Source of the DNA: Crambe crambe
Lineage: Eukaryota > Porifera > Demospongiae > Poecilosclerida > Crambeidae
Reading direction: 5' to 3'
Length of the DNA: 64,000 nt
NCBI GenBank assembly: GCA_963924555.1
Contig: OZ004593.1
Coordinates: 3,654,480 to 3,718,479 of the forward strand
Position numbers and translations under genes: made by a program. Numbering within the stretch: the first letter of the stretch is position 1; every line of letters starts with the position of its first letter. The notes beneath the pieces were generated by a model. The model had not been told where the DNA came from. It saw nothing but the letters and a program-made list of their open reading frames with translations, and made no database searches. Below are positions 44,543 to 64,000 of the stretch, one piece after another.

Positions 44543-47500
44543 ATGTCCATGCTTCGTGCTGCCACCCTCCACCGACCTGTCACTAAGTTGCTATCTCAGT
44601 CCACAAAATGCCTGACCCAGGCCAGAAGATGGCGAGGAAATGGACCTGTTGAGGTAGGGTAAGCGTGGGTACTACGGAAAAACATGCGTAACTGAACATA
44701 TATGTCAAGGTCTATACAATTACTGTCACCAGCAACTGTTACTAAGAGAAAAAAAAATCTAAATGTGGGGGTTACAGAGGCACATCACTAATGATCAGAG
44801 AGTGCATTTGCACTCTGTGTAGTGATGGCAGATCATCTCTCTTCTACCCTTACTCTGCAGGTTCTCAAAAGGCTACAATTACCATATCTACACAGAAGAG
44901 GGAAGAATGTTCAAATAACACAAGAAAAAAAGATTTCTTGTTCTTTATAATTAAAAAGATCGATGTACTGACTCATGGTTGTCACGATTCTGTTATGGCC
45001 ATCTGTTGGGCAGTAGAACTATGTTAATCAGCACTATTGATACTATGCAGAATGTTAGCAAGTCTTTCTCTGCTATTCTTTAAGCTAGCATGTGTGCATG
45101 CTGGGTGGGGCCACAGGAGCACCAAGCTGGCTAGAATTTTAATCCTATTTATTCTGATCAGATGGAATGGAAACAAGTAAATGCAAAAAATTTCTTCTAA
45201 ATGAAAATGTTAGTATGTAGGGATGCCCCTAAAATCTATATAATGTACTGCAGCTTCATTATGAACTGCCATTAGCTATAGGCAGTTTATGTAAATGTAT
45301 GGATTGTTTTCATAAGTAGCCTTAGTAGTGAGGTAGCTTAGGGATTTTTTGTTTACACGGCGGACAAAAGCGTCAAAATTTTTTTGGGAGTTTATATGTG
45401 CACGTAGACCACTTTTTATAGCAAAAACGCAAAATATTCTATTTACATCTGTAAGTGTTATACTGTATTGTTGACTAGGATTCTTCAAAAGTTATAGCTA
45501 CCAGTATGTTGTTTACTAATTAGATTTCACATGTGCAAGTACAAAGATCAGTACATGACAACCCACCTTGATGCATTTGCAACTGGTACAGCCTCGATTA
45601 GATTTGCATCCACGAGTTCACTGGAAGCTCTTGCCTTCACTGTAAGCTCTTGCCGCTTCAGGGATGGTCATCCAGACAGGCACCCAGCCATGATCCTTGT
45701 CTTTTGTCCACCCCCATCCTTCTGGTGAAGGAACATTCTTAAAATATTGATGGTTGGTGGTCCAAATACTGCTCTGGAAAACTGCTCGCTTCACATGTTG
45801 AAGTAGGGCATCCTAAAAGAGAAAGAAGAGTGAATGCATGTGGTGTTAGTATTCTAAACTTTTGTTCTTTTTACAAAATAGTTTTAGCCGTGCTTCATTA
45901 ACAGATTCAAGGACACTAGTTTTGTCATAAAGTAGAACAGTGAATCTCTCCAGCAGAAGGAAAAATGGTGATGTAATATCCACTTGAGCATAACTATTCT
46001 CAAGCATGAAGATAAAAGCTTCGTTGACCTCTGGATAAGCATTCCATATATGCTGTTTTCTTGGATGTGGTATCGCATCCTGTGAATGCATGAAAGGGTG
46101 GGAGACAACGGGATCGTTCTCTCCCTAAATGAGCACAAATAGTGTTGATGCTGTAGTAGCAGAAATGTTTCCCTGTTCCAAAGGCTACCCATAGGGTAGT
46201 CATCAACCATATTGTGAAACTCTCCAATCAGAATAACCACTACATCAGTATCCACTGTACACATCATGATTTTCCTGGAACCACTCGCCAATGAGTCATA
46301 CACATGAAGCATGATGCGGGTATCTGCTTCCTCATGGTCCGAATTAGTCATCTGCCACTCACTACCGATGCAGACCACTTGATCATCTATAGCATCAATG
46401 AATGCATGCATGCATACATATCTGATGTGATGTAAACTGTTTTGTGTACAGGGATATTAACACTGGCCACCCTTTCTGTGAGGAATGAAAATAGTTCAGT
46501 CTTATTCCGAGAGTCACGCAGAAAGTCATCCCATTTCTTAAGGGATCTTGGTTTGTGAAGATACCTTAGTTCTCACCCCACTCCCTCTGTGCTCCCTAGT
46601 CGTACCTTTGATGCTGTTTGCAAAGTATCGATCCCAAACTAAGTCAATTCTACATGCATCTGCCAACTGTTGCTTGAGAAAGGGTACGAAAACTTGGTCA
46701 GCATAGTCTGCAAAGGTATTGGTAGTGTTTGAGGACAAAAAGTGTACCACGGCAGCACCATCAAATATCTTGCAATCAAAAAGAGGATGGGAAGGTTGAT
46801 CACTGGAGTCTAAACATGTTAGAAGAACTGACTTTTGTCCAAGCTGTATCTTACCATACATACATACATACATACATACATACATACATACATACATTAC
46901 ATGCAGAAAATGAAAATCATCTTGCTGCTGCTGAGCGGTCACGTGCACCTGGTCAAGCCAGGATACCTGTGCACTAAGCAGGCACTACGAGCCAGTGCTG
47001 GCAACCTCCTAGAGCTTGGGCTAGGAACTGGAAGGATAATCTCTTCTCAGCAAGTTTCAAGCAGCAAACACAAAGCCTTATTGATACACTCAATGACTTT
47101 GGTAAGGATGACTGTCCTGAGCTTCTTGTATTGAACACCCGTGTATGTGCTGATGACTCCGTTGTTGAAACTGTGCGGTCCCTTAAAGCTCTAGGAATCA
47201 CGAAGTATCAGGAATATAAAAAGGAAGTGATCACAGATAGAACGAAGTCCATTCATGATGCAGTAAAGAAAAACTCTCTGGCATTGTTTAGTTCACCTAA
47301 ACGGAAAGTGAAAGTGAAGTCTTTTTGGTAGGCTGTACATTGCCAATCAACAGCGTGAAGGAGACCCTGTGCAATTTTTCTTGCATGAAAATCAAACCAC
47401 CCCTCCCTCAGCAATGACTCGGCATCTGTTTAAGTGCTAACCAGGCTGAACCAGCTAGTTAATACACTCCAAAAGGAAGCATAAAGTCTCTATGATATTT

Positions 47501-50500
47501 TCGTGTTTATTTCGTGTTTTTGCATAAAAAAAGTGGTGTAGGCACACACCTGTTAGTCAAATTTTTGCAGCCGGTCTTTTTTCTGTTATATATGATCATA
47601 TAAACTTCCCCCCCCCCCCCCCCAAAAAAAAAAAAAAAATTGGTGCTTTTATCCGCCGTGTAAACATAATACAATAATTTACCCCTAAGCCACCCCACTA
47701 TAGGGCAGTCTCTACATAATCTTTTATTTGAAAATTTTTTAGAAGGTCAAGAATTACGTTTGTAGATGCAATAAGGAATATGTTCTCTAGTACTCTGACC
47801 TTCATTTCTCGTCTTCGCCTCTCTTCATTCTCTATCTTTTAACTTTTGTTTTTCTTCTCTTCTTCCATTCTTTCTTTTTCTTTTCCTTTTTTCCATTTCT
47901 CACTCCGATTGATGCTCTAGCTTTAGTTTTTCCTCTTCTACTTTTGCCTGCTCCTTTGCTTTCAGGTCCTCTAAAAATGAATCCTCAGTAGCATTTTGAC
48001 CCTAATTTCTCTTGGTCCCGGTTTAGACAGCACTGCAGCTTCACTCAACGTGTCAAGGTAACACCAGTCTGGTGAAGCTAGTGACCCTTGCTTCTCTGAG
48101 GACGTGTCAAAGTAGGAACCACTTACATTCACTTCTGAATGGTTAATTTATAGCCACGCAATATACTCTGGATCTGTGACTATATTATACCGTTTTTGAT
48201 AAAGTTCTTTCTGGTGAAGCAGCAGACTACCTTTTGGCTCATCTAGACTACTAGCACTTGCTGGCTCTGAAATCTTGTGACTGAACATGCAGAGCTTTAT
48301 CAGTCTATAATTTCACTAGGCCACACTCCAGAATATTCGTGTAGTCACCACAGATGCCCTGGCATCATTGATCACTGAAGCATATCTGTGATGACCAGGA
48401 CACTCACTCATGTATTTATTACTATAAACTTTATTGATGCTTTTGAAAACCCCTACGTCTAGTGATTGAAGTAAATGTGACATTGAAGTAAATATGACGT
48501 GTTGGTAAGCACAATAGATATGTGGGAACTATGTCCATCCTGAATAAGAAGAACATAGAGAGAATGAAATAGAAAAGTAGGATGGCTGTGTGTGGTTCAA
48601 AAAGGAGTGAAGTAGGAATAGTTAGCTCGTGGTTTGGTAATATTGGAGATGGGTAAGGGGTTGAAGTTCACTCTCTAGTTGCTGAACTTTTTTTGAACCA
48701 CACACAGCCATCCTACTTTTCTTTTTTATTTAGAATAAATATTACTTGTTCAAGGGCCAACTGCATACCAAGTAGCAGTTAGCTAGAATATTTGGTAAAG
48801 GTTGTCACATGAATGAGCTATTCAAGGGGTGGGATTTCCATCTATCCAGCTCAGCTAGCTGCTAGTTCATGCTGTGAAGAATGCCAACCAAAGCTTAGGG
48901 AAGAGCAACGCGGTAGCTCAGAGCTGGAAAAGCCCACCTTAGTTGTTGGTGATTTTTCCACACGACTCTCTGCTATTGGATTCCATGCACGAAGCTTTCA
49001 TGGCTGACTAGCTAGCTTTAGTGTTGTATTTATAAGCTTGAACTATCTCGCATGCATGAATTGGGAAAGGGTCACCAATATAACACATTAGTATGTGATG
49101 TCTAATTACGTAGCTAGGGGGAAAATTGGTGTTCCGTTCCACTGGACTACCAGCATTTGCTGAGCAATGGCTGAGAAAGAGAAGATGTTATGTAATTTCC
49201 AGCTCTTTTATGACAGTAGTAAGTTCTGAGATGGGAAGAAGTTCTAGAGTGCATGTAAGAACAGAAATATTTTATTATTGGTGTGTTTTTGTCTGTTATT
49301 TTATTATAGGCAACTGGATGCTGTGATTCTGCCATCCAAGTTAATTGTACCTACGTATGTTTCGAGATTTCATCATAAAATTGTATGAACTGAAATGACT
49401 CTGATCTGGAAGGGCTAATACTGATGGAGTTTGTATCTATTTGTTTTTTAAATCACTCTGATTTTAGGTAAAGATTTAGTTTCACATTAATGAGAGGATC
49501 AGGAACAGAATGGAACTCTCCTCCTGGTAATTGATCTATCAGCATTCGCTGCATACAAACAGATGATTTGCAACAGAAGTTGTAACGGTTCTTGTCTGTG
49601 AATCTGTGATGGCTTATTCAATTTCATCAGTGTCGCTGGTAAATATGATGCAATGATCTCTGTAGGTCTCGGTCACCTTGTTCAGACATTAGCCTCGCAA
49701 CTTTTTCTACTGTAGATCCTGAACTTTGAAGCTACTTGTATCCTTGTCAAACACCTTCTTTGCCCTATATGAGAACTTGTTCTCCAGTTAATCTACACCC
49801 ACGACCTCTTTTCTAGGCTACTGTACTTAGGGAATGGGTGAGGACTTCTATCACCGAATGCAAGGACATAAACTGTTGCAAGGTCAACTGGCAGATGCAC
49901 AGTAGAGACAGCTCTCTCCTCTAGCTATGCCCCTTTTCAGCTAAACTTAGGTTACATCATCAAAAAAGTTTTCAGGAAACTCGTTCACAAGCTAAGCCAG
50001 CGAGTCAAAGTGGCTCATGAAAAAATATTAATTAAGCCATGATACGGTATTATGCAGCTATCAATTGTATGCCCCACTTCCCCCAGTACGGGAAGGGGTT
50101 GGGGATTAGGCAGTGTGGACAATGCAATTATCCCATCCTTGGGGCTGCTCTATATTTCAATCTCCCTATGAATCCCCATATTAAATATAAGGGGATTATA
50201 GGGAGTTGAATTTCTTCTCATTCTTGCAGGTGCTACAATGGGGATGACAATGATGCATTATTATTGTAGCTAGCTATATATATCTGGATCAAAATTAATA
50301 TTGCACCAGGAAGTTTGACTAGTTGCATTTGTTGCAATAAAACTGTTCTGGCTCTTCAAAAACACATACACATTCCCAGTGATACCACTGCCAGGGTTTC
50401 ATCTAGGAATTTCACTTTGGGGGGGGGGAGCTTACTTATCACGTGGCTGTAGGCCTTGGCAAAGGGGTCCCGCGCGGAGCGCGAAAGAAAATTTACTTAT

Positions 50501-53500
50501 TTTTGGAGGACTCATTGTTGGCTAACTCTCCACAAATTCCAATACTCTATTAGGGAGGGGATTACATTTCTTTCAATAAGTATAGCTATATAATTTATAA
50601 ACCTTATGAAGCTTCCTCCCCAGTAGTCAAACTTCCTGGTGCAATATTATTCTTTTTATTAATTTTGATCCAGATATATATAGCTAGCTACAATAATAAT
50701 GCATCATTGTCAACCCCATTGTAGCACCTGTATCCATTGTTCTATCTCTTCTTCCCATAGTGCACCACAAACATCACACAATATAGTATCACTCTCTTCT
50801 TCCTGCTGCTTCTGTCTCTTCTTTTGCTTTCGTATTTCAGCTGCCTTAATGGTTCCTCCTTTTCTGTTCCTGGAAACTTCTTCAAGATGCTCCAACCAAA
50901 TCTTGACTTCACTAACAGGAAGCAACACTTTCTTGGCTAAGGTTTGCAGTTCAATCCCAGACATATTACTACCATGTGCGCTGAGGGAGGCTTGACAGCT
51001 AAATTCGTGACTTGTTGCATGTTATGCAGGTGTTCATCAGGCTTCAAATAATGGCCACTACAGACTCCACTACATTGTGTACAACTGACATCACCAAAAG
51101 GGTGACTACTATCAGGAACAGGCAGTGGGGAAAATGTTAATGGTGGTCCTCCAACATACCATTTGGATAAAGAGGATGATTGCACTCCTTCGATAAGCAG
51201 CACCGAAGGAAGAATATAATACTGACTAGGTAACCCTGGCACCATGTGTCGAGTACGTATATCCCAAATTGAACTAAAATATTCGTAGAGTGCAGGATGT
51301 TTATCCTTCAACTCTTGCTTCTTCTTTTTGGTTCCCTTCAGAAATGTGATCAATTTTTCTCTTCTTTCGTAATCAGCTTGGATACCCTTGAATAGATGAA
51401 TGACAGTCTTGCTGCATGAACACCCATTGCATCTTTCAATATAAATATCTATCAAATTTTGGTGAAGAATACTTTACCATTTTCCTTGACACATGAGCCA
51501 TTAAGAGTTGATGGGATAAAGAGACCACTATGAGCTTGAGTCAAGCATCCATTTTGTAATTCAACACGATTCATATAACTACTACCACTGCTTCGAGTTG
51601 TAACTAATGTTGCCACCTTTCTATGACTCGCATGTCATTCCGTCCGGTAGAACTGGACTTCTTCATGTCCAGGGCCTTCATCCCCTGCTCCATCAACACG
51701 GATACAGTCAATAGTTTTTTCAATTCCAGATGCTGGATTAAAAAATACTGATTTGAGTTCTTCTTTTTCATATAGTAACTGAATGTCTGCAGCATGCTGT
51801 GCTGGGCATTTTGTAAAGAGTGACTGTGCTTTTGTGACACCAACACAATATTCCTACGTGTCATTTGTTGCTGAGAAGTTGTAAGAAGTAGTTTGTAAAA
51901 CTGACAGATATCGATTGACGTAATCAGTGTGGGTAGTAAGCACATCTTGACCTTTTACGACAGGTGTGGAGTATTGATGGTGTGTTGTCAAAGTATCCAG
52001 ATGAAATCCAGCCTGGTCATCCCTATTGATATTCAAAATATTTGTACCACTCTTGTATTGCAAAGCATTCAAGTTCCTATATAGAGCAGCACTCCAATGA
52101 CAATCAGGATTGTAGTGAAGTTGGAAACCTTTTCTTGCTCGGCGGCTTGTTACTTCAGCAAGACCATGATAACGCTTAGCTGAAAGCCTGCATTTGGTTC
52201 TAGCAACACACAGCTGCACAACTGTTCCATACAATATATGTTGCTTGTAGACATCCTTTAAATGATCTTGAATTCTGCGATAAGTGCACTTTTTGTTGAT
52301 TTTCTGGTTCCCATCAAAAGTAAGGATGCCAGTCCTCCAAGCATCTGCTCCTACATTGCAACTGGCTACATACCTTTCAATTTCAGATCCTATGTCAGGA
52401 AATTTGTCGGCAATGCTGTGTAGAGCTTTGGATCTTTTCTTTCCTAGAAAATGCTGGCTAGCAATAAATTTAGCCCTATGTCTTCGAACCTGTCGTCTGA
52501 TAACATTCACTTTCTTTGAAATAATGCTCAATGCATTTAGTCTGAAGTGCCCTTCGATATGCACTTGGGTCATCTGACTCAGAATCTGTTGTAATATCTC
52601 CATTGCACAACTGTTGAGATCGTCTCTTTCTATGCTCATTAATATTTTCATCTGCCCAGAAAGCTTAGAATGACACATCTATACACTTGCGCTCTTCTTC
52701 TGTGAAACTTTTTGAATCAATTTTACTGTGATATGCATTGAGAATTTTATCAATTTGATTGTCAGGTATTTCAAGTATTGCAATAGCATTCATGCGGAAT
52801 TCAAACCAGTTATACAGGCTTTGCTAAAGGATGATATCAAGTTTACCTGCAATCTCTTGATCATAACATCGCAACTCAACATTTGAAGCTATACCTTCGT
52901 CCTCACTGCTATCACTTGATGATGCTGCCTGTGCACACTGCACTCTAGCTTCAATGATTTTTTCAAAAGCCTTTCGAATATCAATAATATCTTGTATTGC
53001 TTTCTCAACTTTTGTTGCATATTCACGCATGTCACTAAATCCTAGTTCCCTGCGAGCTGCAGTTGGAGTCAGCCCAGAAACTTTGAAAATTGCATATTTT
53101 AATATCTCTCTCTCGGTCAGTTGAAGTCAGCAAAAGAAGTTCATGTACTTCCTTCTTGTTTATTGTAAGTGAAGGAGTAGGAGATTTGTTAGATTGAAGA
53201 ATGCGACGAAGGTTTGAGTAATCAATTCCTTGAAAAAATTCCATTATGTATACTGTTGAATTTCCATCAGAAGGTGATCCTACTCGAATAGTTGCTAATG
53301 GCATTTGTAGGAGTCTTCTTTTTGCTTGATGTGAATGATAAGTAGTGTCTGGGAAAAAAGTCTTAAATACATTTGAAAGTGTACAAATAGAATCCTTTAA
53401 TATCATTTCTGCAGCAGCTAACATAGGAGGACATTTCATACAATCAGAGTTCCTTTCGAACTTTGACATACTCGTATAAGGTTATTTGATTTACTTTACT

Positions 53501-56500
53501 AACATAAACAGATTCACTAATCACGTTGTACATGCTTAAATCACTTTATAAATAAATAGGTAGTAGTTTTTCGACTGGCCTCCCTATCATAGAATAGGGA
53601 GGCCTTACTGAAAAATTTCATTTGGATCTGGTTCGTTGCTTCCGGCATCAGAAAGACTATCTTGGTATACAGGTGAAGGAATGGGTGTACATAAATTATC
53701 CTGAGAAGTATGGGACGGAGCCTCTGTAAGGTCAATGGGTGCGCATGACTGTGTTTCTGATGATGGTTCTGTGAGGTCAATAGATGACTGGAAATCTAGC
53801 AATGGCTGTGTGGGCCCCAAAGAAGACTCACCAACACCTTCACTGGGACTGGGACTACTGCTGAATGATTGTTCCAAGAATTCAGTAGAATCACCTGAAT
53901 CACTAGACATTAACCTGGGACGAACAGGAGACAAATATCAGACTCTGATGAACTAGTAGAGCGCTTCTTTTTGTAAGATAACGACTTCTTCTCTTTGTCA
54001 TGGTAATTCTTCAACTCTAGTTCCAGTCTTCTGGCTTCCCGTTCACTTTCACGAATTAGATCAGTCAGTTCTTCACAAAGTTTATAGTTCTTGGCATTTT
54101 TGGCAACTGAACGTCTTTTCATTTTATATTGCATGCCTTCTTTAATCCTCTGCATATCAAGTTCAATTTCCTCCATTCTCTCTTTGCGAATTTGTTTACT
54201 GATATTTAGCAGCAGGCTCAGCAGTCTTATCTAGGAACAATTTTGACCTATAAACCAAAAGTTTAATTCAAAAAAGGGTAATCTACTATGCATAGCACAA
54301 AATACTTGCCTAGATTTTCCTTTCTTGAACTGAAATCCAGAGTCATACACTCGGGCTAGCACCAACAGGTCTCCTTTCTTGGCCAGCATAGAAGGATCAC
54401 TCACACAAATGTCACCAGCTGGTTTATTGACAGCCAGTTGAAAAGATGTTAAAGGTCGTTTGTTCTGCTTTGTGTATACTTTTGCTTTTTCTCTTCATCC
54501 ACTGCACATTTTGTGGAAATGCCTCCTATCACCTGAATGTAGATTTTGTGATTAATAATGTAACAATGAGCATGCATTTATAGAGACACTAAAATGCTCA
54601 GTAAACTTGCCTTGGGCAAGGTCATATGAACAACCCCAGATGAAGACCTTTGAAGTCGCAATTGCTTGGCAGCAGGTTGGGAGGTAACGAGGATAGGCTC
54701 CACCTCAGATACTGAGGATTCAGAGGATTGAGCAGAACATGCCAGAATAGGTTGGGAGGACTCTTTGCTATGTATCGGCTAGGAGGGAAAAATGAGCTGA
54801 GTACCTAGCTAGCTACTACATTAAAAATATACCTGTTCAACAACATGAACTTCAATGACTGATTTGTCAGGGAGAGAAGCATCTTCCTGGAGGCCTTTGT
54901 TTCTTCAAGTCATGACCAGAGGAAGGTCTGAGGCCCAGTTCTGGTCAAAATGTATTGGTCAATTATTCTTCACTGGGTCCACATATTCTACAACCAGATG
55001 AGTTATTCTCCATGCAAGTTCTCACCTGGGCGGACAGGGGGAGGAGTCACACTAGGGAAGGGTGGGGGCTCAGGAGTGTGGTATGGGAAGTCAGAAAGGC
55101 TGTTGATGGCATTGCAGCCGTTATGATTGCAGCAACAGACGATTCCTCCCAAATTGTCAATAGTTGGTTCGCATCGAGCTTTCTGTAGGGCGTGGGGAGG
55201 GGAGGGCAAGATCTAGTAATAATAATACTGCATCACAAAGTCAACTTATACAGATCAGACCAGATTACCCTGTTCTAGTATGTAGTTACAACAATGCATC
55301 ATAAACAAGCAATAACAGGGACAAAATTCTTACACTGATCACTTAAACAAACACATAGAAGTCCCATACTAATGGCTTTCTTGGCAGCTGTAAGCAGCTA
55401 TTTGTTTGAACAACCCTGCATTCTATCATCTTTAATTTTCAACAAAATGGTATTGTTAGCATTCGATGGCAGCACATTAGAAAAAGTGGACAAAATATCA
55501 TCTTAAGGCTGCTAGTGCTAATAATCTTCACAACCCTGCTGTAGATGCCATACAGCATAAGGATACCCTTCATTTTTGCGTGAGGCAACAGCTTATAGAT
55601 TTGCTGAATCGGCTATCATGTGAACTTTGAACTTTCAAACATTAATTTCAATAAAGTTCAAAGTCCCCTATAGCGGGGCATAAACTTCCTACAAAGTCGA
55701 GCATGTTCTCCCACAATTGCTCCACCCCTTCCCGTACTGGGGGAGGTGGGGCATACAATTGATAACCGAAGTCCATTCGAGCAGCATTTTTTTGGTTCCA
55801 GCAAAAATTTTGCCTCAGTACCCAAGTGTATCGTATTTCCTCATAAATAATAAATACTATATGGTGCATTGGTAGAAGTGGCAACCATGATACACCAGGC
55901 ATTACTGGTTTGTATAGCTCATCTGAGAAAAGTTAGCCAACTTTTTGGGTTCTATATGATTCACACAAATCTACATAATATCTTGCATAAAAGTATCTAT
56001 GTAGACTTTAAGCTAGAAAGCATACTAAAACAGTTTGGCCCACGTTAGTTCAAAATAAATTCACATGTACTATGTCTTTACTATAGAATGTGGATTCTCT
56101 TCTTGAAGCCAGGTTGAAGGAAGCTACCATTAAAAACTCGGCACTACTTAATGAGAATGCATCCTTGAGAAAACAGGTGTCTCTCTTGGAACAAGAGGTA
56201 CAGTGTTTGTAAGGTGGTCTTCTGTGGAGAGATAACCTACAGGCTTTGATTTATGTGTACAGGACAATGGTAACTCATGTCCATACCTCAGTTTGGATAA
56301 GCCATTAAAGTATCACCACTAATAATACGTGTGAGCACAAAAAAGCTTGTAGGAATGGCCCCATATGTAATGCAGCCTCTTATCATACATTTACATCCAT
56401 TTCCTATAGGGCTTGGTTCCAGATTTTGGTGCCGTCCTTTTCATTTGGAAGAAATTTGTGTTCACTTTCCAACCTTTTTCTTTTGTAATCATAGATAGGT

Positions 56501-59500
56501 AGCCTACCACAAATGCAGAAGCCGATATTGACTATGTTTTCAAGGATGTTAGCCATTCAAGTGTAGGCTGAACATTGCCCACTGTGTTATCTAAGCATTC
56601 TGCTACCCCTGCTTTCCCAGGAAAAACCCGTAAAAGTTGCTAAACAATAATATATGTGACCGGCTCTGGGAAACCCTCCGTCCAGCGAAAATTAATTTTT
56701 TTTGTTATGGTAAAATTTGTTATCTATGGCCCTTTGGCTCTTTATTGCGCAAATTTCAAAGCTATAGGTTTTATGACGCCTGAGGAACAGCTCTTAGAAA
56801 GATCGAGGTAGCGTCCATTAGCGTTATTGTTTTTTCGAGAAAAGCTGACTAAGCAACGTGAACATTATTTCTGGACATGCCTGTACACTATTAAAATTGA
56901 CGGTGGGTGGGGTTTCGAAGTAAGAAGCTAGTTTCTTGCCTTTTGGCTCGAGAAAGGTCCAACCAAAGCTCCGAGAAGAGAAGCAAGGTACCGAAGGTAG
57001 CGCAGATAGCTTAGTAAGTTCATATTTCCCAGCGCATAAGCTGGAAAGCCTACCTAAAGTTCAATGAATTTCAGCCTGACTAGAATCTCCGTGCACGAAG
57101 CTTCAATGGCTGACTAGCTAACTTTAGCACTTCATTTGAAGCCTTTGTACTTGTAGTCTGAGCTCCAAACTTCATCTGTGCTTTGTTCAAGGATCATAGT
57201 TGTCATTTATGCTTAAAAAAATTTTGGCACTGCCAACTAAACGTGCTCGTATCTGATAATTGATTTTCGCACCGGACGGAGGGTTTTTAGTCAGGTGGCT
57301 TAGTGAAATTATGGGGACACACTGGACAAAAGTACCAAACTTTGTACAGCTAGTCTTACTGATCCATGGAATGATTTGAAGATAGGATCCACCATAGAAT
57401 TCTTTCCTATCTCAAAATGGAGCAAGAAATTGTATAGTTGCTATATGCGCGAATTTTTTTATTTTCGTGGTACATAGAGATTATACAGAAAAAAATTTAA
57501 CAGCCAAAATATTTTGGAAAACAGGTTCTATTGCATTTGCAAAATTCAGTGCAGGTCCAATTTGCTTTCTTGCAGCCACACCTGGTACCACAGCCATTGC
57601 TGCTCTTGCAATTATAGCTACATTTTACAAGTTCTAGACAAGCTTGCTGTGCACTCATCCCCCATGATGCTGGACTTGGTCTGTTCTGCTGAGGTAGTTT
57701 CTCCATATTATGCTGGCTTAGTCCTCAATAAATGTTGAATAAGAGCAGGTGGAAGATTTCGTTTCTATGACAAAATAGCTCCATTCTGGTTTCGTTCACA
57801 CTTTCAAGGTTACTGCTTTTGTTGTATGTATATAATCACTACAAATCTTTCCAGGAGAGAGAAAATGGGAAGAATAGCTAAGGAAGCTTGGAAGTCCTTT
57901 CCTGATTCAACTAGAGCATTTATAATGCACCCCTGAATGATGACTTGTTTCCCCTTTCTGATGTGGTATCACAGCCTGTGAAGCTGTGGAAGACCAGTAA
58001 TGCTGAAGATTTCTCTTCACCCAAAAGAGTGCAGACAGAATTGATGTGCTATAAGGAGAAATTTTTTCCCCTTCCAAAGGCCACCCAAATATTAATGTTG
58101 GGGTTCAAGGAAAGTAATTGAAAAACTTGCCTGTCAGGATGACAATAATGTCAGTATCCACAGTGTGGATCAAACTACTTTGAACTTTTTGTAATGCATC
58201 TGCTATGTGAACCAAAAGTCTAGTGTCTGACTCTTCATGGTCACATGCTTGCATTTGCTGATCAGTACCTTTTGAAAGTACTTCACTACCAGAGGTTATA
58301 TATATCCTCCTAATTACTTTTCTAGAGAGGAAATCAAAAAGCTCTTTCTTATTGGTTCCATCTCTCAGAAAATCATTCCAATTCCATGGACCCTGTTTTT
58401 ACCAGCTACCTTTTGTCTGATGCCTTTCCCCTTCTTTTCTCTTGTGATACTATCAGTGATATGTAGGTATCCCAAACAACATCTACATGAGTGGATCTTT
58501 CCAGCTGCTTGAGGACAACATTATCAGCATACCGTACTGGTTAAATGTAATGATGTTAACAGTGGAAAGAAGGTGAATAAGAGCACCACCATCAAATACA
58601 ATAATATCGAAAGAATCTGGAGGATTGCCAGTCAGATTTTTTTGAAGATCGTAATTTGCCATACTCAGATATAGGAGTCCAAGAAAAATCTGTAGCTCTT
58701 TTCAAATGAAAAGCTAAAACTAAACAGGTTAAGGCAGTTGTAATGCTCAAAAATGATGTTGCAAAATAATTGTGGCAAGAAGCAGAGAATGTGACATACC
58801 ATCCTTCTTTAAGCATGCCTTTCCAAATTGTATCATGAATAGAAAAATGCAAGAATACAAGCATAATGATGTCACCTTTCAAAGGTTTTATTTTTACGTT
58901 TTTTAATTTCGCAATACATTCTCTATGTGGTGCGAAAATTTAAATTTTCGTGCTTATCCCATTTTAGTTTTTTTAAATAGAAAGTCACAAAACATGCGGA
59001 TTTTGAAATTCTGTGATTGGATCCTATCATAAAATTAAAGTTAAATGTATAAGGATTTCATGGGGGAAAAATGGCACTTTTGTCCGCTCTGTCCCCATTT
59101 CATGAAATTTTGTTGCTAAGCCACCTGACTATTTCCCAGAGCCAGTCACATATTTCTGGCTAGACTATTTGGTAAAGCTCGTCACGTGAATAAGCTGTTC
59201 AAGGGGTGGGGTTTCCATCTATCCAGCTCGGCTAGTTCATGCTATGAAGAATGCCAGCCAAAGCCTAGGGAAGAGCAACAAGGTAGCACAAGAACTGGAA
59301 AAGCCCACCTTAGTTGGTGATTTTTCCACACAACTATCCGCTGTTGGATTTCCGTGCACAAAGCTTTCATGGCTGACTAGCTAGCTTTAGTGCTTTATTT
59401 GTAAGCTCCATAACTATCTCGCATGCATGAGGGTCACTGATATAACACGTGCTAGTACGTGACATCGAAATACGTAGCTAGGGGGAAAATAGCATTCTGT

Positions 59501-62500
59501 TCGCAGGCCTCACTGAACTACCAACGTTTGCTGAGCAAGGCTGAAAAAGAGAAGATTCCGGCTCTTTTATTACAGTAGTAAGATGGGAAGAATAAGCTCT
59601 AGAGTGCATGTAAGAGCAGAAACATTACATTAATTATTTATTTATAATGGGTGGTTCCTTGGGCTCGGGGTTGTCCACATAGTTTTATTTCTACTTGGTA
59701 TGTAATTACAAGCATAACCAACATACCAAGTAAAGCACATGTTATTTGTGCTTATTATATCATTATTCATTACAATAATAAGTTGTAAGGTAGGGATGAA
59801 AGTATCTTTGGTCTTGTGGTGCTAGTGGAGAGGGTGATGACAGGGAAGAAACGCGCTTTGATTATTTACATTACGTATTTCTATATATTTTTTTCTACTT
59901 GGTATGTTATTATTATTATTATTATTATTAGGCCAAAGATGAAAAGGTAAAAGTAGAAGAAAAAGTAAAAGAATTAAAAGAGTTACAGGTATGGAATATA
60001 CATACAAAGGGAACCAATCAACTTTAGATGTACGTAGTTGGTAAGCACCTTAATAGTCAGGTTGCTTAGTGAAATAATCGTTACCGGGCGGACAAAAGTG
60101 CCATTTTTTGCACAAGAGTTCATTTTGTGATACTAAACAATATTAGCCTAGGAGCCCCCGACAAATTCTTAGCGTACTCGCAGAATAATAAAATGGCCGC
60201 CATATTCAGCAATTATCCAATATATTTTGTGATAAATGACTGAAAATTGCATTATTATTCACAATAGCAGTTACAAAGTGGAAAATATTCCTAGCGCACT
60301 CGCAGAATAACAAAATGGCCGCCATATTCGGCAATTATAAGATAAATCACTGCAAATTGCATACAAAGTGAAGATTACAGCAGTCACTTTTACATGAAGA
60401 TCCCTTACTAGGCTAGGAGCTAACTTCAACAATAATTTAGCACTTATGGTTAAGAACAAATGGCTGCACGAGAAAAAATAACTGATGCAAAATTAGTTTA
60501 GTGTAAACAGAGTCATTACATTTGCATTGGCAAAGTGATGAGCATTGAAGATTAGCTTTAGCACATTTGCATCTGGTATAATCTCCTTTGCATGAACATT
60601 TTACGAGTTCGCTGCATGCTCTGGAAACTTCTGTGATTGTAATCCACACTGGGATCCAAGGCCCTGATGTTGACTCCTTGGTCTACGAGAATTCATGTGG
60701 TGAAGAAATAACTGGCTGTGTTTGCATGCAGGTGGTCCAGATTCCAGCTTGGACAGTGCATGCTGAGTACGAATGTGCTGAAGTAGTGCATCTTGTGTGG
60801 GTGGTATTCTGTCAATTGATCTACTCTCTCGACAGAAAAGTTCTTCTCTCGCTTGATTGACTGAGCTCAAAGGACTGCATATATAATGACAGTTAGCCTA
60901 TCAATTCTCTGAAAATGAAGACATTCTACACTCAGATGCTCAAAAGCATGACTGGCAAGGTGTACGAATGTGTCTGTGACAGCTTCATAGATCTGCCAAG
61001 CTTGCCAAGCAGTCTTCTTGCCCTTTCCCTTAAAGGCTGAAGCAGTGTCACAGTCAGTCAAATGCATGAAACACTGGTAGACTTCGGGATCTTGGCTCTC
61101 CTAGGGTGGAACAGACGATGTTTATGGAATAGAAGCAGTAGTTCTTCCCCATCCCAAAGGCAACCCATGCAGATGTCTGCTTGAGGTTGAATTGCAGTAA
61201 GGTCATAGAATGCGCCAATAAGGATTGTTACCACATCAGTGTCTACTGTGCACAATGACCCTGGTATCAGCTTCTTCATGGTTGCAATCTAGCATTGGAT
61301 TGCTTGAGCCTATGCACACAACAGACTTCCCCGATGTGATATACACAAACTTGCTTGGTGGAAAAGCGTATTCAGCAACCTTGACTGTAAGAAAGGTAAA
61401 CAGCTCCTCTTTATTTTTCGAGTCATGAAGGAATCCTTCCAGTTACCAGGGAGCGTAGTTGAGCCAGACACTTTTCTTCACACACCCTTCCCCTCTTGTT
61501 CCTGGTGGACTCCTTTAAACTGTCTACAATGTATGTATCCCCAATCATGTAGTATTCCTTAGCTGCTTCATTAAGTAAGGCATGAACACCTTATCTGCAT
61601 ACTCATCAGAGAGTGTGGTAGCACTCTCTATGTAGGGTTAGTAAGGAATGGGCATGAACAATACAAACTGGACTCTCTGTATCTCTTCTATTCTTGCTAC
61701 AGGCTCAACTAAACTTCTTACATCTAGAAAACAATGCAGCTATGTCCGCTCAAACTCCTCCAGAACAGCGTCAACAATCAGCACCAGCTGCCGTCTAAAT
61801 CTAAAATTTTTATGATTCGTTCATCATCATCATCAGATTTTCTTTGATGGCTGTAACTCCATGATCCTTTCACATACGACAATCAAATTCATATCAACTT
61901 GTGCAGTTATAATCACACAATGTGCTTTTACCATCGTTATTCACACAGTTTTCCTCTAAAATAATCAGTCATATCGAACGACTTTTCATTACAAATGATA
62001 CTATGTCAGCCATTTTGAAATTAATGACGTCATTTATGACACACGAGCGTCTGTCATGATCACATGCATGTATGCGTGTGCCAACCAGTACCTAGCTAGC
62101 TAGCCACTCTAAATAAAAATGAATTGAGAAAAGGTCATATAGCTAAAAAGTAAACAAACAATTGAAAGGGAAAATATTTAAAAAGGCCATGTAGGGTTAG
62201 TCTGTACTTTTACCTATAGCAGTTTCTGTGAACAAACATCAAATTATGCTGCCTTCAATAATAATCCCTACATCACTGCCTAAACCAAGTAGAACTTTAC
62301 ACTGACATGAACAATAAAGCAGCTTGGTGGGAGGCAGTGATGTAGAAGGCAGCATAATTTTGATGTTTGTTCACAGAAACTGCTAGCTATAGGTAAAAGT
62401 ACAGGCTAACCCTACATGGCCTTTTTATTTAGCATAAATTTTTTCCTTTCACTTATTGAAAGTAGTAACCCCAGAGGTTGGCAAGCTGTGGACGATAACA

Positions 62501-64000
62501 GGACCATCAAGCACCATGCAGTCAAACATAGCAGGTGGCTCATTCTCTACAGATTGCTCAATACATTGCAGTAATTCAGACTTAGCACTTGGCAAATTGA
62601 GCTTACCCAGCTCCTAGAGAGATGGTGGGAACGATTGGATCTCATGAGCGAAAAATTCACTTTCAAAAAGCCACAATCCACAAGAAGAAAAACTTCTATT
62701 TACTGAGCACATGGGATTTAGAATTCTATTCAGTGCATACCTTATTAAAGAAATTGTTTTGAGCAAGGTAGACCTCTGTTTGTTCGATCAGGCAAGGAAT
62801 CCGCATACTCATCAAATCCACATGCATGTACTTGATGCAGAAAAAGTACAATTACAGCACTATCCGAGACCTTGCATTCAAAAGCTGAAGAGGTAGTTCT
62901 ATTAGCTAATGATTAACAAATGAATGCTAATATCACTTGTGCACTCATGCAGCAGCGAAAAAAAGAACACACACATTAATAAGCCACAAAATAGTAATTT
63001 TGAAGGATAAATAGCGGCCATTTTGTTGTGCGGCGAAAAATTTTGAACATCCAAGAATAATTATAATGCTAATGCACCACTTTTACCTCATGTGTAGAAA
63101 AATAGGTATTTATATACTATTTGATGATAATAAGCCCACAAAAATAGTATTGCGTCAATTAAATGGCGGCCATTTTGTTCTGGGGCGTGAATTCATGAGG
63201 GCTCCTAGGCTAATATTGATTAGTATGATGAAAGCAAGCTGCTGACAAATTTTGGCGCTTTTGTCCGCTTCGTAACAATTTCATGAAAATTTGCCTCTAA
63301 GCAACCTGACTATAAATGGAGAAGTTTCCATAGTTCCTACTTGGCAAGCTATAATTCAGTCTTAATCGCCAGCATGCATCCAGTTGTATCTCCAGAATAT
63401 AATTTCATTTACATGCTCATCACACAGAAATATACTGACACCGGGATACTACGAAATTTTTATGACCTTGTGTCTCTCAACATCGATCAACAAGACTTGG
63501 GTGGCAGTTTTAGGCCTGCTTGTGTGAATTTGGTACATGTAGCTATTACCACTAGAGAGTTATCAAGCCAAGTTTCAATTTCAAGTGTAGGGCCATTTGT
63601 GTAAACAAGTTGTTTCATTTTAGTACCAGGTACATTCTATACTGCATGCAAAACCCAATGATCATTTCTATTCAAGCATAATAACACTATAAATTGACAC
63701 ACTACAGTCTTGACAGGTATATGTTACGAAAGAAAATTTTTGTGCTCCTCCAATGGGACATCCATGCCATCCCTACTCAGAGAGTACTCTCTTATCATCA
63801 CCCTAGTTGCTGCATTAATATTAATTCTAGTGCATTATTTAAACTTGTGAATATATTTTATTGAAGCCTATAGTTTTTTTTCTTAATCATAGGATAAATA
63901 CTTGAGAGCACTGGCAGAGACTGAAAATGTCCGTCAGACAACAAGAAAAAGAGTGGAAGAAGCCAAACTATATGGTGGTCAAGAATTTGCAGAACAAATT
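44543..64000 (+). CDS. GRPEL1: GRPEL1-like mitochondrial GrpE, nucleotide exchange factor (3' end missing)
   Basis: GrpE proteins release ADP from mitochondrial Hsp70 during protein import. Two exons are diagnostic: 59932-59988 (AKDEKVKVEEKVKELKELQ) and 63893 to the window edge (DKYLRALAETENVRQTTRKR, then EEAKLYGGQEFAEQI). They join in phase 0 and match the coiled coil and start of the GrpE core. The proposed first exon, 44543-44653, encodes an Arg-rich, acid-free presequence (MSMLRAATLHRPVTKLLSQS) suitable for mitochondrial import and also ends in phase 0. A zipper-like exon at 56087-56197 is on the same strand, also phase 0/0, and may be a middle exon. The span between is filled with transposons, which makes exon membership uncertain; the C-terminal core is right of the window. 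Confidence 0.72.
44654..45325. other. Intronic spacer before transposon copy A
   Basis: No convincing exon is seen. A fragment related to the small foldback at 34458 lies at about 45245-45320 (TGTACTGCAGCTTCAT and TGGATTGTTTTCATAA). Confidence 0.45.
45540..46945 (-). pseudogene. Family X protein remnant (HEEADTR / DTDVVV / FHAFTGCDT type)
   Basis: Frameshifted segments read, N- to C-terminal: FDCKIFDGAAVVHFL, YADQVFVPFLKQQL, HEEADTRIMLHVYDSLASGS, TVDTDVVVILIGEFHNM, FHAFTGCDTTS, and a region related to ALLQHVKRAVFQSS. Acidic residues spaced in this way are typical of a PIN/XPG-like nuclease fold, which I infer rather than prove. Similar uncharacterised proteins are common in cnidarian and sponge genomes, as I recall. 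Multiple stops and shifts make it non-functional. Confidence 0.75.
46851..46897. repeat. (CATA)n microsatellite inside copy A
   Basis: Eleven or so CATA units interrupt the transposon's minus-strand coding sequence, adjacent to an inverted segment. Confidence 0.95.
46990..47331 (+). pseudogene. Inverted N-terminal fragment of the family X protein
   Basis: The plus strand reads PRAWARNWKDNLFS, LLVLNTRVCADDSVVETVRS, LKALGITKYQEYKKEVITDR and KKNSLALFSSPKRK. This is the N-terminal part of the family's protein as I recall it, yet it points opposite to the rest of copy A. It ends at a TAG near 47331. Confidence 0.65.
47701..48562. other. Intronic stretch with a pyrimidine-rich decayed frame
   Basis: From 47790 to 48000 the plus strand is rich in TTC/TCT. 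Its complement reads Lys/Glu/Arg-rich sequence broken by stops (EKRKRKRKNGRREE-like). It looks like a decayed coiled-coil fragment or simple repeat. No gene can be supported. Confidence 0.35.
48563..48742. mobile_element. Deleted relative of the 33713 foldback element
   Basis: GTAGGATGGCTGTGTGTGGT at the left is matched by ACCACACACAGCCATCCTAC at the right. The interior retains GGAGTGAAGTAGGAATAGTT and GGTAAGGGGTTGAAGTTCAC found in the longer copy, but one arm is shortened. Confidence 0.85.
48783..49330. repeat. Dispersed repeat R1, copy 1
   Basis: About 540 bp are collinear with 59157-59640. Shared blocks include TTCAAGGGGTGGG, TTTCCATCTATCCAGCTC, GGAAAAGCCCACCTTAGTTG, TTTCATGGCTGACTAGCTAG, CGTAGCTAGGGGGAAAAT and TTTGCTGAGCAA. 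A more diverged version lies inside element D (about 56960-57130). It has no coding content. Confidence 0.85.
50228..50732. mobile_element. Foldback insertion or inverted duplication in element E
   Basis: The arms begin CAGGTGCTACAATGGGG and run through TGACAATGATGCATTATTAT, GTAGCTAGCTATATATATCT and CACCAGGAAGTTTGACT. The right arm is the complement, with a small insertion. The outermost bases on the right overlap the end of E's coding frame (QVLQWG), so the left arm may be an inverted copy of transposon sequence. The centre holds a GGGTCCCGCGCGGAGCGCGAA repeat. Confidence 0.8.
50710..53469 (-). pseudogene. Element E transposase-like protein, frameshifted
   Basis: The exons/frames in order are as follows. 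First is 53035-53469 (MSKFERNSDCMKCPPMLAAA), continuing after a shift into ARRELGFSDMREYATKVEKA. Next is a segment around 52680-52790, then the long frame 51854-52678 (CHWSAALYRNLNALQYKSGT, NINRDDQAGFHLDTLTTHH). In another frame near 51640-51720 is DCIRVDGAGDEGPGHEEVQF, which may hold catalytic acidic residues. Last are 50937-51455 (CNGCSCSKTVIHLFKG, HMVPGLPSQY) and 50710-50964, with a homeodomain-like helix and a CDVC zinc-binding end. I recall this protein type from cnidarian and sponge genomes as unnamed; the superfamily is not assigned. At least two frameshifts disable it. Confidence 0.72.
53577..53604. terminator. Perfect 11-bp hairpin between two frames of element E
   Basis: GGCCTCCCTAT and ATAGGGAGGCC pair perfectly around a six-base loop. 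It lies between the stop of the frame ending at 53605 and the start of the next protein at 53469, both on the minus strand. A role in 3' end formation is possible but unproven. Confidence 0.4.
53605..55209 (-). pseudogene. Second protein of element E, acidic/Ser-rich
   Basis: Exons between 55209 and 53605 encode a Pro-rich start with CCCNHNGCNAI, a linker (SVIEVHVV), a conserved-looking block QLAVNKPAGDICVSDPSMLA followed by KKGDLLVLARVYDSGFQF, and then a basic coiled coil (MEEIELDMQRIKEGMQYKMK). The C-terminal tail is rich in Ser/Pro/Asp with two IDLTE motifs, ending PNEIFQ. A one-base shift is needed near 54480. I do not recognise the family; it lies within the same terminal repeats as the transposase, so it probably belongs to the element. 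Confidence 0.5.
56087..56197 (+). other. Leucine-zipper-like exon of uncertain ownership
   Basis: A 37-codon exon with a good acceptor (CTATAG) and donor (GTACAG), phase 0 at both ends, reads LLEARLKEATIKNSALLNEN then ASLRKQVSLLEQE. Leucines fall at heptad spacing with an Asn inside the core, as in bZIP zippers; LEARLK resembles ATF6. It could equally be a middle exon of the GRPEL1-like N-terminal coiled coil, whose flanking exons have the same phase. No basic region was found nearby. Confidence 0.6.
56652..59153. mobile_element. MITE-like element D, split by copy B
   Basis: The left end ATATGTGACCGGCTCTGGGA, then AACCCTCCGTCC, is matched on the right by GGACGGAGGG (57274-57283) and, after the inserted copy B, CCCAGAGCCAGTCACATAT (59135-59153). 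Without the insertion the element would be about 650 bp. Its interior shares blocks with repeat R1. Confidence 0.78.
57288..59131. mobile_element. DNA transposon, family X copy B (1.8 kb), inside element D
   Basis: The ends are TAGTCAGGTGGCTTAG and CTAAGCCACCTGACTA, a perfect 16-bp inverted repeat, with GGACAAAAGTA / TGGCACTTTTGTCC subterminal. TTT flanks both sides. Minus-strand remnants include a Cys-rich C-terminus at 57497-57706 (ELVKCSYNCKSSNGCGTRCG, CKKANWTCTEFCKC) and decayed pieces up to 58880. Confidence 0.9.
59157..59640. repeat. Dispersed repeat R1, copy 2
   Basis: This is collinear with 48783-49330, with small deletions. It starts directly after the right end of element D. Confidence 0.85.
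61703..61798 (+). other. Terminal-exon-like frame inside copy C insertion
   Basis: After a good acceptor (TTCTTGCTACAG) the phase-0 frame reads AQLNFLHLENNAAMSAQTPP then EQRQQSAPAAV and a TAA. It could follow the zipper exon at 56087 in phase, extending the heptads. It may be a captured host exon, an alternative last exon, or chance. Confidence 0.4.
62181..62425. mobile_element. Foldback element nested in copy C
   Basis: The arms of about 95 bp run AAAAGGCCATGTAGGGTTAG, then GTACTTTTACCTATAGC and AGTTTCTGTGAACAAACATC. They are complemented on the right with few differences. A short loop with TAAACCAAGTAGAAC lies between. Confidence 0.9.
63725..63800. repeat. Short repeat shared with 32900-33010
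   Basis: TGCCATCCCTACTCAGAGAGTACTCTCT is the approximate complement of AGAGAGTAGTACTCTCTAAGTAGGGATGGCA near 32918-32946, and both lie beside a CTCCAATGG / CCATTGGAG block. It is a fragment of a small dispersed element upstream of the last GRPEL1 exon. Confidence 0.6.

Follow-up and report, generated by a model that had tools for sequence, protein, structure and literature searches.

What kind of mobile element gave rise to three related copies that share matching inverted ends and 3-bp target-site duplications (TSDs), and what part does their protein play? The copies lie in a stretch of 64,000 nucleotides of Crambe crambe DNA (the window). A preliminary description of this DNA had proposed a PIN-like protein, acting either as a transposase with a nuclease fold or as a passenger, and had considered that either would be new.

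The three copies with matching ends were confirmed by pattern search, and the TSDs claimed for them are all exact (Table 1). The ends of copy 1 are diverged, with two mismatches in each, and both are identical to those of a full-length element elsewhere in the genome (C5:6642402-6647769). The preliminary description also gave the copies a common subterminal motif. Its core is indeed present in all three, but the exact form GGCGGACAAAAG is found at only one end each of copies 1 and 3; copy 2 has the variants ACTGGACAAAAG on the left and AGCGGACAAAAG on the right.

Table 1. Features of the three transposon copies in the window. Profile numbers refer to positions in the protein profile.
Feature	Position	Strand	Basis
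Copy 1, left TSD TAG	45323..45325	.	sequence
Copy 1, 2,375 bp, rearranged internal-deletion derivative	45326..47700	-	ends and profile searches
Copy 1, left TIR, TAGTGAGGTAGCTTAG	45326..45341	+	pattern search
Copy 1, subterminal motif GGCGGACAAAAG	45359..45370	+	sequence
Copy 1, FEN/XPG-like nuclease domain remnant (profile 5-440), several frames	45636..46963	-	profile search
Copy 1, inverted internal piece: transposase tail (profile 961-1055) and nuclease start (5-35)	47044..47410	+	profile search
Copy 1, right TIR, TAGTGGGGTGGCTTAG	47685..47700	-	pattern search
Copy 1, right TSD TAG	47701..47703	.	
Copy 2, left TSD TTT	57285..57287	.	
Copy 2, 1,844 bp, G-type subfamily, internal-deletion derivative	57288..59131	-	
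Copy 2, ends TAGTCAGGTGGCTTAG, perfect 16-bp	57288-57303 and 59116-59131		
Copy 2, nuclease domain and Cys-rich end remnant (profile 54-476), broken frames	57518..58647	-	profile search
Copy 2, right TSD TTT	59132..59134	.	
Copy 3, left TSD TAA	60051..60053	.	
Copy 3, 3,259 bp, T-type subfamily	60054..63312	-	
Copy 3, ends TAGTCAGGTTGCTTAG, perfect 16-bp	60054-60069 and 63297-63312		
Copy 3, subterminal motif GGCGGACAAAAG	60087..60098	+	sequence
Copy 3, Cys-rich C-terminal remnant (profile 417-476)	60515..60679	-	profile search
Copy 3, nuclease remnant (profile 38-392), many frames, interrupted 61619 to 62452	60757..62900	-	profile search
Copy 3, right TSD TAA	63313..63315	.	

How general are these ends? 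The genome (143 Mb in 119 contigs) was searched with the 16-bp end pattern, using the backward (reversed) pattern as control. With at most one mismatch the pattern occurs at 83 places (43 forward and 40 reverse), compared with two for the backward pattern (0 and 2). Within the window, allowing up to three mismatches, it occurs at 10 places, six of which are the ends of the three copies; dinucleotide shuffles of the window gave a mean of 1.22 matches and a maximum of 3. Genome-wide there are 23 convergent pairs of ends (at most one mismatch, within 6 kb). Of these, 20 were fetched and two belong to the window; the remaining pair, C10:2356587-2357484, was left out. The TSDs were analyzed in 24 copies with distinct flanks: 19 of the 20 fetched pairs (L028 being omitted, as its flanks are those of L027), the three window copies, the C5 element and L050. 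An exact 3-bp TSD is present in 23 of the 24, and a 4-bp TSD in none. When the pairing of left and right flanks was shuffled, the mean number of matching TSDs was 1.9 and the maximum 9. The sole exception is L011, with flanks CTA and CCA. The duplicated words are diverse (CTA four times, TAA three times, plus 13 others), with no restriction to TWA. The copies are a family of DNA transposons with terminal inverted repeats (TIRs) and 3-bp TSDs.

Do the ends always bracket the same protein? This was examined for 24 bracketed copies, comprising the 20 fetched pairs, the three window copies and the C5 element. A profile of the nuclease and Cys-rich end grown from genome copies matched all 24, and none of their reversed sequences. 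Because this profile included fragments of the copies being tested, the test was rerun with profiles built solely from loci outside the set. The nuclease part (L040 and L089) was then matched in 22 of the 24, and the remaining two, L022 and L024, matched the N-terminal and core profile (L067 and L089); the reversed-sequence controls gave no matches. All 24 bracketed copies carry parts of the same protein, and an unrelated standard transposase was found between the same ends in none of them. Of the single ends, those with fetched loci were examined, and two of them, L001 and L003, lack a recognisable protein in the 1.5 kb next to them. Over 71 bp L001 matches G-type ends with 100% identity; L003 matches copy 3 with 83% identity over 154 bp.

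The subfamilies differ at base 10 of the end, which is G, T or A. The G and T copies (1.7–4.8 kb) retain parts of the nuclease half, with the transposase part undetected in profile searches, except that L014 keeps a small part of the N-terminal region. The A copies (1.45–2.1 kb) retain N-terminal and C-terminal pieces. These two patterns of retention mark the copies as probable internal-deletion derivatives. In most T copies the profile pieces are broken in nearly the same way, suggesting that multiplication followed the loss of function. Nine T copies, L027 and L028 with their shared flanks among them, were compared over an open stretch of the nuclease; 11 sites vary, distributed 2/5/4 over codon positions 1/2/3; for these few sites there is no third-position excess and no sign of constraint. 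Copies L050, L051 and L058 (C9:7.24–7.50 Mb) form another subfamily, which has TAGTCAGGTCCCTTAG ends and CTC duplications. All three have the same flanking bases, so segmental duplication has probably multiplied their locus; the flanks of L027 and L028, both on C20, are likewise shared.

The protein motifs noted earlier, HEEADTR, DTDVVV and (F)TGCDT, were recovered exactly or nearly so on the minus strand, in broken frames. Copy 1 has HEEADTR, DTDVVV and TGCDT, copy 2 HEESDTR and DTDIIV, and copy 3 HEEADTR, DTDVVT and TDCDT. The window copies are decayed, non-autonomous internal-deletion derivatives. To judge from its relatives, the protein in the window is mostly the C-terminal half of one of ~1,400–1,600 aa. 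The layout of the large protein is an N-terminal Cys/His region, a conserved D…D…E set, a FEN/XPG-like nuclease and a C-terminal Cys-rich module. Searches of the genome gave at least 50 matches to the nuclease part and at least 47 to the N-terminal part, some of which are pieces of one copy. The C5 element is 5,368 bp long and has exact copy 1 ends and the TSD TAC/TAC; the N-terminal region, D…D…E region, nuclease and Cys-rich end all lie on one strand in this order, with their frames broken. A second relative (C8:4926963-4931884, read from two loci with 13 bases between them left out) has related but diverged ends, TAGTGGGG…, and the TSD TCA. It has a single frame of 1,052 aa running from the first conserved D through the Cys-rich end. 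Its own relative on C14 is 97–99% identical in aligned blocks, with non-matching flanks (TAA/ATA, read by eye). The distant homologue L089 has every part in a single open frame of 1,600 aa; the ends of its element were not found. On C13 a 664-aa frame carrying the N-terminal part has a G-type end with one mismatch upstream of it, and this ties the subfamily of copy 2 to the same protein; a second end was not found in the stretch examined. With the patterns used, no relatives were found in viral contigs, prokaryote contigs or phages, which fits a eukaryotic element.

The preliminary description was right in a broad sense to call the protein PIN-like, because its predicted structure matches enzymes of the FEN1/XPG/Rad2/Xrn1 and T5-D15 kind. 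An AlphaFold model of the L040 nuclease, made with 30 aligned rows, has pLDDT 74.9 and pTM 0.77; the core is best and the Cys-rich end poor. In a Foldseek search of the PDB, the best 15 of 597 matches (E up to 10) are all of FEN/XPG/Xrn type, and include the T5 D15 flap endonuclease, Xrn1, Rad2, Rat1, Plastid Localized Exonuclease 1 and GEN1 (best E 6.6e-4, probability 0.90–1.00, query TM-scores 0.27–0.38). A single match has E below 0.001. Unrelated proteins of low probability appear from rank 16, with XPG and FEN1 at ranks 17 and 22. Against viral models there are 16 matches with E up to 0.001, and 10 of the 14 that are named are FEN-1, XRN or 5′–3′ exonucleases; the top match is the herpesvirus protein Allo54 (E 5.4e-8). 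The acidic positions of FEN type are conserved in 9/10, 12/12, 14/14 (twice, adjacent Glu), 14/15, 18/18, 15/18 and 16/17 rows, and we take them to correspond to the metal ligands of FEN1. Among the exceptions, three Q and one H come from misaligned or frame-shifted rows, and two N are apparently genuine substitutions in copies that have decayed. The domain is therefore predicted to share both the fold and the conserved acidic residues of the FEN1/XPG/Rad2/GEN1/Xrn1 5′-nuclease superfamily. Unlike those enzymes it has no match in the PDB at the level of sequence, where searches gave chance-level matches only (best E 1.9 and 0.59), and it is joined in one protein with a transposase-like region and a Cys-rich end.

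The region upstream of the nuclease was aligned in 21 rows, many of them fragments. Residues D472, D709 and E954 (L089 numbering) are invariant wherever they are covered (10/10, 7/7 and 8/8), in motifs that are roughly DN…, DQPL.A.AK and D(Q/H)..EQ. By this conservation the region is likely to be a DDE transposase core, for which we infer an RNase H fold. The AlphaFold model of this stretch is poor (pLDDT 48, pTM 0.32).

Where does the family belong? AcademX elements have an XPG-like nuclease fused to the transposase, together with a Cys8 zinc finger. Kolobok elements target TTAA, and PIF/Harbinger elements combine a Harbinger-type transposase with a TWA-like 3-bp TSD. In the present family the C8 relative and L089 each have the nuclease and the D…D…E region in one ORF, and the full-length relatives have a Cys-rich end, where the structural model is poor. 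The available text of PMC10045372 describes AcademX as having a nuclease and a TSD of 3 or 4 bp, and AcademH as having a helicase and TSDs of 9–10 bp. According to the portion of PMC10294476 at hand, the mean length of the Academ consensus elements from a curated library of bivalve repeats is 5,565 bp, and the full-length element here is about 5 kb. Since the 3-bp TSD, the nuclease and the length of about 5 kb agree with these published descriptions, we file the family under the AcademX kind of Academ, an assignment that is likely to be correct; in this comparison by description, no difference from AcademX was found in the text available. In the part of PMC3627910 available, RecQ helicase is the sole extra Academ protein named. 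AcademH was rejected, the TSD here being 3 bp and no Pfam helicase match being found among four proteins; it shares the Academ superfamily with the present elements by name only. KolobokD, E and P also have a transposase accompanied by a nuclease, but in the accessible text of PMC9587614 the accessory nucleases are DEDDh, PD-D/ExK or His-Me, against FEN/XPG here, and the targets here are variable 3-bp words. Harbinger was likewise rejected; its TSD has the same length, but the targets here vary and none of the Pfam transposase models matched. Literature searches on these protein motifs, on Academ with XPG and on PIN/XPG transposases found nothing relevant. The combination of transposase and nuclease is probably not new, as it seems to be that already known from nuclease-encoding AcademX in the accessible text of PMC10045372. 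The elements look like a new family of this known type.

Might the family instead be a new superfamily near Academ but separate from it, having the same 3-bp TSD and nuclease with an unrelated DDE core? The parts that were scanned have no Pfam family, and Academ was compared by description rather than by sequence, both of which leave room for such a reading. We nonetheless regard it as improbable, for the nuclease is predicted to be of the XPG type and the Cys-rich end may correspond to the Cys8 finger of AcademX, and TSD length, nuclease and element size agree with AcademX and Academ as described in the available texts.

Assignment to AcademX places the chemistry in the putative DDE core. A different division of labor, which we think very unlikely, is that the FEN/XPG-like nuclease is itself the transposase, with the upstream D…D…E region serving only a structural or DNA-binding function. 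The FEN-type acidic residues are conserved, it is the nuclease half that the short G and T copies keep, and the model of the DDE region is poor. Yet the nuclease is fused in a single protein to a region whose D…D…E is invariant in the aligned rows, and its remnant in the T copies is without sign of constraint, few as the 11 sites (2/5/4) are. Moreover, a TSD with a fixed length of 3 bp is characteristic of staggered DDE joining, and for FEN enzymes strand joining is not known. In the same vein, we give very little credence to cleavage for release or insertion being performed by the FEN/XPG-like domain instead of an RNase H-fold core, the D…D…E set then not being the catalytic core; if true, this would be a transposase with a flap-endonuclease active site. 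A stand-alone transposase of nuclease fold, as first suggested, is most likely wrong, as the larger protein also has the Cys/His region and the D…D…E set. That the nuclease is a passenger gene captured by some unrelated transposon with a 3-bp TSD, Harbinger for example, is extremely improbable: only the nuclease half is detectable in the short G and T copies (L014 apart), but elsewhere in the genome it forms the C-terminal part of a larger protein with the D…D…E set, no Harbinger Pfam model matched, and both passenger and stand-alone nuclease were rejected because the better-preserved copies (C8 and L089) have it downstream of, and in frame with, the transposase-like region in one ORF.

Returning to an AcademX-like cut-and-paste transposon with a DDE core, we propose the following model. 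The full-length element of ~5 kb has short inverted ends (16 bp in the family of the window), a subterminal GGAYAAAAG-like motif and 3-bp TSDs, and encodes one protein of ~1,400–1,600 aa with a Cys/His region, a D…D…E region that we take as the DDE core, a FEN1/XPG-like 5′-nuclease and a Cys-rich module. The Cys-rich modules may bind the ends and the subterminal motif, and the DDE core would cut and join strands with a 3-bp stagger. The FEN/XPG-like domain could act on a flap or branched intermediate, trimming or cutting it as the element is excised or integrated. The copies in the window, which retain little or none of the DDE core and in which the nuclease has decayed, would be mobilised in trans.

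The family adds several subfamilies of a little-characterised type of transposon within one compact eukaryote genome, and it combines clean ends with full-length relatives and with a structural model linking the nuclease to FEN1/XPG. Pfam scans of the proteins and their parts gave no family reaching the cut-off, and such elements might therefore easily be annotated as unknown genes. The presence of a flap-endonuclease domain on a cut-and-paste transposase poses a testable mechanistic question.

The window holds other repeats. Inside copy 3, at 62179-62427, a pair of 42-nt inverted repeats that are 98% complementary may be a MITE-like element nested within what is left of the nuclease. Between the transposon copies there is another dispersed repeat (48782-49288, 57087-57144 and 59159-59643), of which the two long copies are 80–91% identical in blocks and the 58-nt piece 76%. 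At 50227-50730 a 74-nt inverted repeat, 99% complementary with 356 nt between its arms, is possibly a recent foldback element. Lastly, a 274-aa frame on the minus strand (51854-52678) had no match reaching the cut-off in a Pfam scan; it has seven matches in the genome including itself, the others at 44–62% identity, and one of these lies in a 666-aa ORF on C1.
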